A stretch of DNA of 44,671 nt. Source: Verrucomicrobiales bacterium (GTDB taxonomy: Bacteria; Verrucomicrobiota; Verrucomicrobiia; Verrucomicrobiales; V1-33). Shown here piece after piece: positions 3,848 through 8,445 of this stretch; position 1 is the first letter of the stretch; the number at the start of each line of letters is the position of its first letter. Under the pieces are notes generated by a model. It saw nothing but the letters and a program-made list of their open reading frames with translations, searched no databases and had not been told where the DNA came from. Made by a program: the position numbers and the translations under genes. Location of the stretch: assembly GCA_018003315.1 (NCBI GenBank), contig JAGNEJ010000033.1, positions 1 to 44,671 of the forward strand. The letters are read 5' to 3'.

Positions 3848-6358
3848 TCAGGGTAGCGCAAACACCCTGGCGGCATCGCGGGAGGCCGCTCCGGATTTCC
3901 CGATGGGCAGCACGGCCAGGACGCGCAGGATGACGGGATCGTGATGCAGTTTGGCGTTGCGATCCACATCCGGCAGCGCCACCACCATGAACCACTGGTC
4001 TGCGGGAACCGCGCGCAAATCCGCATCCCGAACGATGGCGGAAATGGGTGATACCATCCGCTGCTGGGAACGTCCGCCCCGCCGGTCGGATTTCGCAGGC
4101 GGCCGGACCATGAGCACGGTTCGATCAAACGGCTGCCGAAAAAACAGGCGTCCGAAATCCGAAGCATCCTCATGAGCCGGAATGAATGTCCGGTATGGTC
4201 CCAGCCGGGCAGGCAGCACTCGCAGGGCGTCCACGCCGCCTGCCTTGGCCACTTCCGATGGGGCGGCAGATTCCACCCATGCGAGAATCTCCCGCCGCTC
4301 ACTTTCGGAAGGTTCGGGCGGCTCCGCCGGATGTTTGGCTAGGATCATGGCTCCGGCACCTGTCAGGGAAACCAGTGCCAGCATCACCACCGCGCCGCCA
4401 ACCAGAGGATTCTGCGCCGTCACCGCTGGATCCAGTGCGGAATGTTCTTCCGGCACAGGACGCATGCCGCCGGACAGCCAGCGCTGCAGCCACAACAGGG
4501 CACCTAACAGAATCAGCCACTGTGCCCAGTCGGCAAACACCGACGATCTCCGCAGCAGTGTGGCCCCGGCTACGGCATGGGTGATGGCGCAGCCGACGAG
4601 CACCGCAGCCAGCAGCGCCAGAAGCGGACGGTTCGCCGGTGTTTTCCACCACAGCAGCAGGAAGGCCGCTGCCAGCACTGCGGGAAACCAGGTTCCGTTT
4701 ACATCCGGCCATTCATCTCCCGACGGAAGACTCCACTGCACCTGCCCCATGCCGTCCAGAAGCCACCAGACTGCCGGAGCGCTTCCGGCCCAGACCAGCA
4801 ATGGAGCGGCGCCGCCGCCGCGCCACCACCGGTGCACGGCCGCAGCCAGCAACACCAGCAGCACGATCAAACCAGCAGCAGATGTCTGACCGACCGGATG
4901 GCAGGCAAATTTGAGGGCAGCTCGGCCGAGTTTCGCCGCATAGCGAACCGGATCTTCCCTCACGGTTTCGGCAAACCGTTTCATGAAATACGCATAGCGT
5001 TCCGGAGTGGGTCCAGCCACGGAGGAAATCCCGTGCGCTTCCAGTTCCGCGCCCATCCAGCCACCCAGCGGACCGTTGGTGGAAGCGGTGGCATAGAGCA
5101 GATCCGCCGTCTGCGTGGACAGGGTCGCAATGCCGTGGACGGATTTTTGCCTGGCCAGCCACGGAACGAACACCAGGCACGCTCCAAGACCAAGGGCGAT
5201 GCCAGGGCGAAAATCCCAGCGCCGCCACCAGGCGCGGACATCGTCCTGACATGGTCCGGGACGCGACACCAGCAGGCAAAAGAATGGAAGTCCGAACAGC
5301 GCCACCGGGCAGGCCAGATTTCCCAGACCCAGCAGAATGCCCGCGAGCAGCAGCAGCCCGAGTTGTTTCCACCGTCCGCCATCCGGTTTCTGCCGCCAGT
5401 TCAGCAGAACCAGCAGGCCGGTGAGCATCAGCACCAGTCCGGCCTGTTCCGTCATGATGACGCGGACTTGATAGGCATGCTCGCCGGTGAAAACCACCAT
5501 GGCGGCGGCGGCAAATCCCAGCAGGCGCGCCCCCAGGGCGCATCCGAAAAGAAACACCAGGCCGACCGAAATGCCGTGGCAGAAGGCATTGAGGATTTGC
5601 GGTGCGAGCACTGAGGGGCCGGAAAAGCAGAAAATGCATCCGAGCAGATAGGAATAAAACGGGCGCTGGCCGTCAAAGCCCCCGGCCAGTCCGCGGCCTT
5701 CGGTCAGGCTCAGACCCATTTCATTCCACATGACCGCATCGCTGTAAGGCATGCCCCGGATGGAAAGCACGCCGTCGTGGAAATCTGGATCGGCGGCGAT
5801 TTCACCGAGGCGCAAACTGGCAGCCGCCACGGTGAGCAGCAGCGGCATCCATTTCCAGAGCCTGCTTCCCACGGGGGGAATGGCCGACGGTTGTCGCCGC
5901 CAGGATGCGGCGCCCAGCAGAAACACCCCAAAAGCCACGCCCGCGCTCCAGACCGGAATGGGATAGGGAATGCGCAGTGCGTAGGCGCGTCCGTTTTCCG
6001 AGGGATTTGTCAGGTCGGCGGTGCGCAGGAGGGCGTAACTCCTGCTGCGGGCGAGGTGATACCGCGGACCGCCACTGTTTTCGAAATCACGCCGGCTTCG
6101 GGCCGGGGTGCCCAGTGGCAGACCGTTTTCCAGAATTTCACCGCGATCCTCCACCAGTGCAGTGCGGTAGCGCTCCGGAATGGCGGCCTTCCATCCGTTC
6201 TCCAGCGGGAGAATTTTTGCGGCAGGAATGGGAATGGTTTTGGTCCACCCCAGCCCGTGCAGGCTCTGGCATAGCAGGAGGACCGCGGCCAGCGCACCCA
6301 GCAGGGCACACCACCGGGCCAGCGGCTGCGGGAGTTGGGGAATGGGAAGACGCATCAT
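3848..6358 (-). CDS. Polytopic membrane protein, GT39/GT-C-like glycosyltransferase candidate
   Basis: 836 residues with roughly a dozen hydrophobic segments. The first is near residues 15-35, then a soluble loop, then a series of helices from about residue 140 to 640, and a soluble C-terminal stretch. The acidic motif YSDAVMWNEMG, after the second hydrophobic block, and the following GQRPFYSYLLG pattern resemble the first extracytoplasmic loop of GT-C (PMT/ArnT type) glycosyltransferases, which use lipid-linked sugars. The family call is an inference from architecture; other large membrane proteins of unknown function remain possible. It starts with tandem ATGs (6358, 6355). It is divergent from the acyltransferase-heptosyltransferase gene about 100 bp away, which would fit a role in surface glycan assembly. 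Confidence 0.6.
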   Translation of the reverse strand: MMRLPIPQLPQPLARWCALLGALAAVLLLCQSLHGLGWTKTIPIPAAKILPLENGWKAAIPERYRTALVEDRGEILENGLPLGTPARSRRDFENSGGPRYHLARSRSYALLRTADLTNPSENGRAYALRIPYPIPVWSAGVAFGVFLLGAASWRRQPSAIPPVGSRLWKWMPLLLTVAAASLRLGEIAADPDFHDGVLSIRGMPYSDAVMWNEMGLSLTEGRGLAGGFDGQRPFYSYLLGCIFCFSGPSVLAPQILNAFCHGISVGLVFLFGCALGARLLGFAAAAMVVFTGEHAYQVRVIMTEQAGLVLMLTGLLVLLNWRQKPDGGRWKQLGLLLLAGILLGLGNLACPVALFGLPFFCLLVSRPGPCQDDVRAWWRRWDFRPGIALGLGACLVFVPWLARQKSVHGIATLSTQTADLLYATASTNGPLGGWMGAELEAHGISSVAGPTPERYAYFMKRFAETVREDPVRYAAKLGRAALKFACHPVGQTSAAGLIVLLVLLAAAVHRWWRGGGAAPLLVWAGSAPAVWWLLDGMGQVQWSLPSGDEWPDVNGTWFPAVLAAAFLLLWWKTPANRPLLALLAAVLVGCAITHAVAGATLLRRSSVFADWAQWLILLGALLWLQRWLSGGMRPVPEEHSALDPAVTAQNPLVGGAVVMLALVSLTGAGAMILAKHPAEPPEPSESERREILAWVESAAPSEVAKAGGVDALRVLPARLGPYRTFIPAHEDASDFGRLFFRQPFDRTVLMVRPPAKSDRRGGRSQQRMVSPISAIVRDADLRAVPADQWFMVVALPDVDRNAKLHHDPVILRVLAVLPIGKSGAASRDAARVFALP

Positions 6359-6462: not shown

Positions 6463-8445
6463 ATGCCGGTGTTTCTTCCGCGCTTCATGTCTGCTGGCGT
6501 TCCCCCGCTTTCCTTTTTCCGCAGGGCTGCCGCGTATGCTGTTTACGCGGCATTCCGGTCGCTGGAAAGCGTGCTGCGGATCCTGCCGCTGGAAATGGCA
6601 TTCCGCCTGGGCATGGTCGGAGGCTGGCTCGCATGGCTGCTGTTGCCCGGCTACCGCCGCCTGGTGCAGCGCAACCTGGCCATTGCCTTCGGCCAGGAAC
6701 AATCCGCCGGAGAACTCCGGCACCTGGCGCGCCGTCACTTCGTGTTGCTAGGAGGAAATCTGCTTTCCAGTTTCAAGATCCCCTGGCTGCCTCCGGAGAA
6801 AGTGGCGGAACGGGTGGAATTTTCCGGACTGGAACATGCCGCGGCGGCCGTGCGCGAAGGTCGCGGGCTGATTTACGCGCTGCTCCACATGGGGAATTGG
6901 GAGATCCTTTCCCAAATGTCCCTGATGGCTCCAGGCTCCCGTCCGGCGACCATGTATCAGCGACTGGGAAATCCGTATCTGAACGCCCATGTGGAACGGC
7001 TGCGGGCCCGCACCGGCTGCACGTTGTTTGACCGGAGGGAGGGTTTTTTTGGTCCCACCAAATGGCTGCGGGAAAATGGGGTGATCGGCATTCTGGTGGA
7101 CCAGCATGCGGGAGACGCCGGGACATGGTGTCCATTTTTCGGACGGCTGGCTTCCACGACGAATGCGGTGGAATTGCTGGCACAGCGCACCAAAGCTCCC
7201 ATTTTGCCGCTTTCACTGGCCACGGTGGGAACGGCGCGGTGGCGGCTGCAGGTGCATGCGCCCCAGCCCACCGTGCGCAACGCGGACGCCGCCGCCGCGG
7301 ATCTGAATCTGGTCCTGGAAAAAATCGTCCGCAGCTCGCCCGCTGACTGGTTTTGGGTGCATAATCGCTGGAAGACGCCGAATCCTGCGTTCCTCTTGTG
7401 CGAATACAAACGCGGCGTGGTGCTGCCAAACGACTTTCCCATGGAAGCCCTGCAACCTTTCTCCATTCTCCTGCGCTCCAGCAACTGGCTGGGAGACGCG
7501 TGCATGGCGCTGCCCATGGCCCGCGCCCTGCGCCGCGGCCGCCCGGATGCGCACCTGACCGTGCTGACTCCGGCCAAACTGGCCGGGTTTTGGAAACTGA
7601 TCCCGGAAGTCGATGCCGTGCTGGAAATTCCATCCGGCGCGGGGCTGCTCGCGGTTCGGCGCTTGGTTCGCCGGAGCGGACGGAAATACGATGCGGCGGT
7701 GCTGCTTCCCAATTCCCTGCGCACCGCCCTGGAAGTGTGGCGCAACGGCATTGAACGCATTGTCGGCTACGCCGGACACTGGCGGCGGCGGCTTCTGGAC
7801 CAGATCATCCCGCCGCTCAAGTCCGTAGGACCCACCCGGCACCACGCCGAGCACTATTTGCGGATGGCGATGCGGCTGGGGGCCAATGTCAGGGACCCTG
7901 GCCTTTATGCCCCGCTGCTGCCTGCGGCGGCGGAAACGGACACGGGCACCGTGCTGCGGCTCGGGCTTTGTCCCGGAGCGGAATACGGAGCGGCCAAACG
8001 TTGGCCGGCGGAGCGCTTTGCAGCAACCGCACGACAAATTGCCGAGCAAACCGGCTGCCACTGGATGCTCTTTGGGGCCGCGGGGGACACCGCGGTGGCA
8101 GCCGAAGTGGAAACCTCACTGGGTGGACACTGCGAAAACCTGGCGGGAAAAACCTCACTGGAAGAACTGGTCCATGCCTTGCGCCGGTGCCGCCTGCTGC
8201 TGACCAATGATACCGGCGCCATGCACCTGGCCGCGGCGCTGGGGGTGCCGGTGGTGGCCGTCTTTGGCTCCACAGATCCGGAATGGACCGGCCCCTTGGG
8301 CGGCGAACATGTCGTGCTGCGCAGGCATGTGGAATGCAGCCCCTGCTTCCTGCGGGATTGCCCGCTGGACCTGCGCTGCATGAAGGAAGTGGAGCCCGAA
8401 CATGCCGTCGCCGCGGTCATGGGAATGCTGGCCGGACGCGTCTGA
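6463..8445 (+). CDS. Fused lipid A acyltransferase (LpxL-like) - heptosyltransferase II (WaaF-like)
   Basis: A single 660-residue chain with two LPS-biosynthesis domains. Residues ~10-310 are an LpxL/HtrB-type late acyltransferase: an N-terminal hydrophobic helix, the H-X4-E catalytic motif HMGNWE (H142, E147), and the family-typical WFWVHNRWK near the end. Residues ~333-660 are a GT9 ADP-heptose:LPS heptosyltransferase. They start with LLRSSNWLGDACMALP, then have CPGAEYGAAKRWP and, near residue 580, LLTNDTGAMHLAAALG. The LpxL part would add a secondary acyl chain to lipid A at the inner membrane, and the GT9 part would add a core heptose. The two functions are normally on separate proteins. 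No stop or frameshift separates them. Start 6463 was chosen where the frame leaves the antisense membrane-protein gene; ATG 6487 is an alternative. Confidence 0.88.
   Translation: MPVFLPRFMSAGVPPLSFFRRAAAYAVYAAFRSLESVLRILPLEMAFRLGMVGGWLAWLLLPGYRRLVQRNLAIAFGQEQSAGELRHLARRHFVLLGGNLLSSFKIPWLPPEKVAERVEFSGLEHAAAAVREGRGLIYALLHMGNWEILSQMSLMAPGSRPATMYQRLGNPYLNAHVERLRARTGCTLFDRREGFFGPTKWLRENGVIGILVDQHAGDAGTWCPFFGRLASTTNAVELLAQRTKAPILPLSLATVGTARWRLQVHAPQPTVRNADAAAADLNLVLEKIVRSSPADWFWVHNRWKTPNPAFLLCEYKRGVVLPNDFPMEALQPFSILLRSSNWLGDACMALPMARALRRGRPDAHLTVLTPAKLAGFWKLIPEVDAVLEIPSGAGLLAVRRLVRRSGRKYDAAVLLPNSLRTALEVWRNGIERIVGYAGHWRRRLLDQIIPPLKSVGPTRHHAEHYLRMAMRLGANVRDPGLYAPLLPAAAETDTGTVLRLGLCPGAEYGAAKRWPAERFAATARQIAEQTGCHWMLFGAAGDTAVAAEVETSLGGHCENLAGKTSLEELVHALRRCRLLLTNDTGAMHLAAALGVPVVAVFGSTDPEWTGPLGGEHVVLRRHVECSPCFLRDCPLDLRCMKEVEPEHAVAAVMGMLAGRV

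Follow-up and report, generated by a model that had tools for sequence, protein, structure and literature searches.

A late acyltransferase joined to a WaaF-type heptosyltransferase in one conserved gene of the Verrucomicrobiia

The window, the whole 44,671-nucleotide stretch of Verrucomicrobiales DNA that was analysed, encodes on its forward strand a single predicted chain of 660 residues (72.8 kDa, pI 9.8) in which two LPS enzyme domains follow one another (Table 1). The first-pass annotation had described two complete domains joined head-to-tail without a stop, and the sequence bears this out: all 660 codons are free of internal stops, the catalytic residues are intact, and the Pfam search that it proposed matches both PF03279 (E 7.6e-48; 163.6 bits against a gathering score of 22.3) and PF01075 (residues 399-635, positions 7657-8367, E 1.3e-40), with nearly all of each profile covered. 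The HMGNWE motif and the WFWVHNRWK segment (residues 296-304) are present as it had reported. The GT9 domain also starts soon after the acyltransferase ends, as claimed, at a distance greater than the ~20 residues given there, with the first GT9 strand at residue ~333 and a linker of ~28-30 residues. The open frame extends 5′ of position 6463 to an ATG at 5905, over a stretch that has another gene on its opposite strand, but alignments with relatives begin only at residue ~6-30; position 6463 is a reasonable start codon, the exact start being less than certain. That the window gene is a real fusion is confirmed. The draft state of the source genome (155 contigs) might invite the suspicion that a frameshift, misassembly, or chimeric contig created it, an artefact that is ruled out by the identical architecture in dozens of independent genomes, including those of the isolates Chthoniobacter flavus Ellin428 and Verrucomicrobium sp. 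and a complete genome of 2,664,102 bp taken as that of Akkermansia muciniphila ATCC BAA-835, which encodes a GH20 enzyme nearly identical to PDB 6je8.

Table 1. Coordinates of the fusion gene and its parts within the window.
Feature	Position	Strand	Basis
Fusion gene, LpxL-family acyltransferase + WaaF-type heptosyltransferase	6463..8445	+	frame, Pfam, NCBIfam, conserved architecture
PF03279 Lip_A_acyltrans domain (residues 35-305)	6565..7377	+	Pfam, structure match
HX4E catalytic motif HMGNWE (H142, E147)	6886..6903	+	alignment to E. coli LpxL H132/E137
Linker (residues 306-334): PxPxFLLxxYKRG, 9-residue variable stretch, LxPF	7378..7464	+	alignment, model
WaaF-type GT9 heptosyltransferase domain (residues ~335-656)	7465..8430	+	Pfam, TIGR02195, WaaF 1psw Z 24.5
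Catalytic Asp D345 in NWLGD	7495..7497	+	aligns with E. coli WaaF D13
K512 in PGAEYGAAKRWP	7996..7998	+	aligns with E. coli WaaF K195

The late acyltransferase half spans residues ~25-305, with helices at residues 18-60 that are likely to form the membrane-association region. Its HX4E dyad, equivalent to that of LpxL from E. coli K-12, is invariant in all 60 aligned fusions. None of the NCBIfam acyltransferase models reaches its cut-off on this half; the LpxL/LpxP model TIGR02207 scores 100.8 bits against 297.8, and the MsbB model TIGR02208 falls behind it with 71.1 bits against 336. Because the LpxL/LpxM subfamily cut-offs (e.g. that of TIGR02207) are not reached, the half is filed, by its sequence, under the PF03279 family and the label of LpxL proper is withheld. 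The GT9 half, by comparison with the models for its own family, scores 213.1 bits for heptosyltransferase II (TIGR02195; equivalog cut-off 134.6) versus 63.5 bits for heptosyltransferase I. Its catalytic Asp is kept in 55 of 60 fusions and replaced by Glu in the five Akkermansia sequences, and K512 is kept in 54 of 60 and lost in Akkermansia.

The first-pass annotation had asked whether separate lpxL and waaF genes are absent from the genome, and the answer differs for the two halves. No other gene in the window genome scores above the heptosyltransferase II cut-off; of its further GT9 genes, one (C142) is WaaC-like, and all stay below the heptosyltransferase cut-offs. Two additional genes, C65 and C91, carry PF03279, and the fusion is therefore not the only late acyltransferase of this genome. 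In a same-genus relative (G001), the fusion is immediately preceded by another LpxL-type acyltransferase gene (L010, 3-1112), whose nearest relative in the window genome is C65, on another contig. KdtA is present in the window genome. An HldE-type nucleotidyltransferase domain scores 173.6 bits, just below its cut-off of 181.5, and no HldD-type epimerase is found above cut-off, the best candidates scoring higher as GalE-type epimerases; with no HldD at that threshold, the sugar could be D,D-heptose or a different one. The HldE-type domain is itself fused to a PurN-like formyltransferase (PF00551) in a gene (L214, 1321-2544; G000:C112) that adjoins an LpxA-like gene, and A. muciniphila has a 496-residue HldE in its place.

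Structure prediction gives a confident model of the chain. An AlphaFold2 model built from a 60-sequence alignment resolves two domains with mean pLDDT 91.8 and pTM 0.90, and the high pTM suggests that the halves would adopt a defined arrangement. Structure comparisons (Foldseek, VIA-align) pair the N-terminal half with LpxM (5kn7) at Z 27.9 and with PatA at about 26.5. For the C-terminal half they give WaaF (1psw; Z 24.5, with an rmsd of 2.7 across 310 residues) and, at a Z of about 21.8, WaaC; a search of a viral structure library gave nothing beyond matches that were GT9-like or generic. The linker is modelled with pLDDT about 91-93, and its first part, residues 306-320, is more conserved than either domain (mean pairwise identity 0.60, versus 0.46 for the LpxL half and 0.50 for the GT9 half), with P308, L311, and R317 invariant among core fusions. 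The following residues, 321-329, are variable (0.26). Most core fusions (39 of 48) have a linker of 30 residues; it is shorter in Akkermansia (25) and longer in the Opitutus-like group (33-35). From these features we infer that the linker has a role of its own.

Surveyed in Verrucomicrobiota, as the first-pass annotation had proposed, the architecture proves widespread across the class Verrucomicrobiia. All 37 relatives searched match the fusion, most of them over both halves, and a contig scan yields 481 encoding stretches, the best 80 of which are all labelled Verrucomicrobiota, isolates included. Among 145 genomes sampled evenly over the phylum, matches to both halves are confined to this class, to which the window belongs; about 96 of the sampled genomes come from elsewhere in the phylum, and no fused match is seen in them. 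Several long GT9 frames, most of them outside the class (L201-L204, L206) and one within it (L133), were rejected as candidates, their upstream reading frames being empty of any acyltransferase. No plasmid record covers 80% of the query. Within the class, groups are referred to by guessed labels: Opitutus-like (f9, f16, f17), Methylacidiphilum-like (f8), and Xiphinematobacter-like (f11, 0.9 Mb). The fusion is the sole PF03279 gene in two 0.9-Mb genomes. Opitutus-like genomes (L132, L134, L138, L140, L141, L142) carry a second GT9 gene head-to-head beside the fusion, WaaC-like where tested. Methylacidiphilum-like genomes (G072, G101; L131, L129) have no PF03279 gene at all and encode an unfused WaaF-type GT9 between LpxK-like and MurJ-like genes. 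One genome (G029) contains two fusion genes (L209, L210), one grouping with the Opitutus-like fusions, possibly through horizontal transfer, and the other with a decayed acyltransferase half. In another (L208, G035), the LpxL half is complete and the fusion is truncated within the GT9 half, of which the first part is left.

The fusion is old. The LpxL halves of all fusions cluster apart from standalone acyltransferases (SH-aLRT 98). In quick trees of the GT9 halves, fusions of the Verrucomicrobiales and Chthoniobacterales types fall into a single clade (99.7) and those of the Opitutus-like group into a second (100), and the AU test does not reject one shared fusion event (p 0.31). A single origin is compatible with this test but not proven, because the Opitutus-like fusions branch apart. 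Two standalone GT9 genes (L211, L212) nested inside the fused clade suggest that the LpxL half was lost there at a later stage. Both halves are under equal purifying selection, with dN/dS between the window and its same-genus relative of 0.166 for the LpxL half and 0.158 for the GT9 half. A search of the neighbourhoods in relatives found no conserved cluster of LPS genes surrounding the fusion; the neighbouring genes are not conserved, and the halves are therefore kept together by fusion rather than by a gene cluster. One half has been lost or split off in some lineages, so the fusion is not indispensable.

An unexpected version occurs in Akkermansia, where the sugar-adding half, judged by its motifs, appears to have lost its active site and the acyltransferase half is kept. 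The fusions of this genus (L121-L127, L130; that of A. muciniphila, genome G142, is L125, 1435-3372) retain HX4E and lack the GT9 catalytic motifs: in all five aligned sequences the Asp is replaced by Glu, the Lys by Ser or Asn, TG by GD or GV, and His by Ser or Ala, with loss of the NDTG/H motif. TIGR02195 is not among the matches listed for them at E values up to 1e-15. The fused GT9 half still folds in silico (pLDDT 88.5, pTM 0.87), and its dN/dS of 0.11-0.20, against 0.08-0.11 for the LpxL half, indicates selection that is relaxed, still constrained. In four genomes of the genus, A. muciniphila among them, the fusion is the sole PF03279 gene, and the other clear GT9 is a standalone protein of 331 residues with intact Asp and Lys motifs (HGALGD, KRWP); one of the four has an additional weak GT9 match. 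Three smaller Akkermansia-genus genomes (2.2-2.4 Mb; L194-L196) encode a complete LpxL half followed by a GT9 half that breaks off after its first part. On a 2.65-Mb contig of a further genome (L197, 421-2560; G025), the two halves are encoded in separate frames that overlap at the linker, through either a natural split or an error in sequencing.

These observations bear on published Akkermansia LPS chemistry. Two reports describe an inner core of three Kdo and one heptose (PMC13135019; PMC12527988). A dead fused heptosyltransferase together with one live standalone enzyme would explain the single heptose, an explanation that is a correlation of genome with chemistry. For strain HW07, one account names JFJHEM_01585 as a ‘potentially new acyltransferase’, LpxL-like and 23.7% identical to LpxL, reports no lpxM homologue in A. 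muciniphila, and leaves open the route to hexa-acylated lipid A (PMC12527988). Given the single PF03279 gene of this species, JFJHEM_01585 is probably the Akkermansia homologue of the fusion, and the parts of that account consulted make no mention of a fused GT9 half.

The single chain, the two complete domains, the intact catalytic residues, the equal purifying selection, the conserved linker, and the wide distribution are read from sequence and model; the acyl position, the sugar, the acceptor, the membrane placement, and the advantage of fusion are what we infer from them. The gene probably encodes one bifunctional, membrane-anchored LPS-assembly protein that couples acylation and heptose addition by stoichiometry and location. 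The N-terminal half would lie at the cytoplasmic side of the inner membrane, where it would, like LpxL, supply the Kdo-lipid A precursor with a secondary acyl chain. The C-terminal half, kept at the same membrane through the fusion, would move the second heptose from ADP-heptose onto the inner core in the manner of WaaF. The likely benefit would be that lipid A maturation and core extension take place side by side with their enzymes in a fixed 1:1 ratio, and a membrane tether for WaaF at that ratio is the simplest form of it; regulatory coupling of the two halves is possible. Substrate channelling, which the first-pass annotation had put forward, is unsupported. In E. coli, the WaaC step falls between those of LpxL and WaaF and late acylation is independent of heptose, and the WaaC-like C142 is separate in the window genome. 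Hand-over of product is an unlikely benefit because such an enzyme must act between the two steps. Mutants in waaC still have acylated Kdo2-lipid A (PMC8151780).

The chief alternative to a coupled protein is a passive accident, in which the enzymes were joined once, each works independently, and coupling amounts to co-expression. That the two steps are not consecutive in E. coli fits such a history, as do the fissions, truncations, and losses of one half tolerated in several lineages and the unfused WaaF-type GT9 of Methylacidiphilum-like genomes lacking a PF03279 gene. Persistence across orders and even in reduced 0.9-Mb genomes argues in the other direction, as do the invariant linker residues, a linker segment more conserved than the domains that it joins, and the defined arrangement in the model, leaving the passive accident a real, if minority, prospect. 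A tighter form of coupling would make the fusion a checkpoint that ties acylation to core extension via the linker, with the GT9 half in Akkermansia a non-catalytic positioner or regulator of the only late acyltransferase; this reading is speculative and somewhat improbable.

Two further readings concern what the protein does and whether it stays whole. Transfer by the GT9 half of a group other than the second heptose (the first heptose, D,D-heptose, or another sugar) would accommodate the lack of an HldD above cut-off, the Opitutus-like fusions that score below the TIGR02195 cut-off (111.6 versus 134.6), and the unusual Akkermansia cores (PMC12527988, PMC13135019). The strong preference of the window GT9 half for the heptosyltransferase II model and the separate WaaC-like gene speak against it and make it unlikely. 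The chain could also give rise to two separate enzymes, by cleavage of a precursor or at translation, for which the variable stretch of nine residues within the linker and the Akkermansia genome with halves in different frames offer some opening. The linker is modelled at high confidence, however, its flanks are conserved, and no relative requires an internal start, so this reading is very improbable.

The bifunctional, membrane-anchored protein thus preferred combines two well-known families; what is new is that they are joined, how widely the joined gene occurs, and the half-dead Akkermansia version. No description of the fusion was found in the open literature, including that on Verrucomicrobial LPS genes, in a search that left subscription papers and domain-architecture database pages outside its range, and as far as these open papers show, a class-wide late acyltransferase-heptosyltransferase fusion is an unreported layout. 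Host sensing of Gram-negative bacteria depends largely on lipid A acylation and core sugars. One gene is now indicated as the sole LpxL-family acyltransferase of the gut commensal A. muciniphila, and its decayed heptosyltransferase half offers a reason for the single-heptose core.

Each half of the fusion can be set beside characterized enzymes. The Kdo-dependent late acyltransferases LpxL and LpxM (HtrB/MsbB) share with it the whole PF03279 domain, the HX4E dyad, and the LpxM fold, and it differs from them in the added C-terminal linker and GT9 domain, in falling below all NCBIfam equivalog and subfamily cut-offs, and in the 27% identity of its acyltransferase half to E. coli LpxL. Mycobacterial PatA, also a PF03279 protein, has the acyltransferase fold in common but acts on a different acceptor and lacks a GT9 domain. 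The closest counterpart of the C-terminal half is heptosyltransferase II, WaaF (RfaF), whose E. coli form is 36% identical over 285 aligned residues and alike in fold, with the equivalents of D13 and K195 retained in the window fusion. In contrast to WaaF, the GT9 domain here sits behind an acyltransferase and is hence predicted to be membrane-tethered, with putative substrates.
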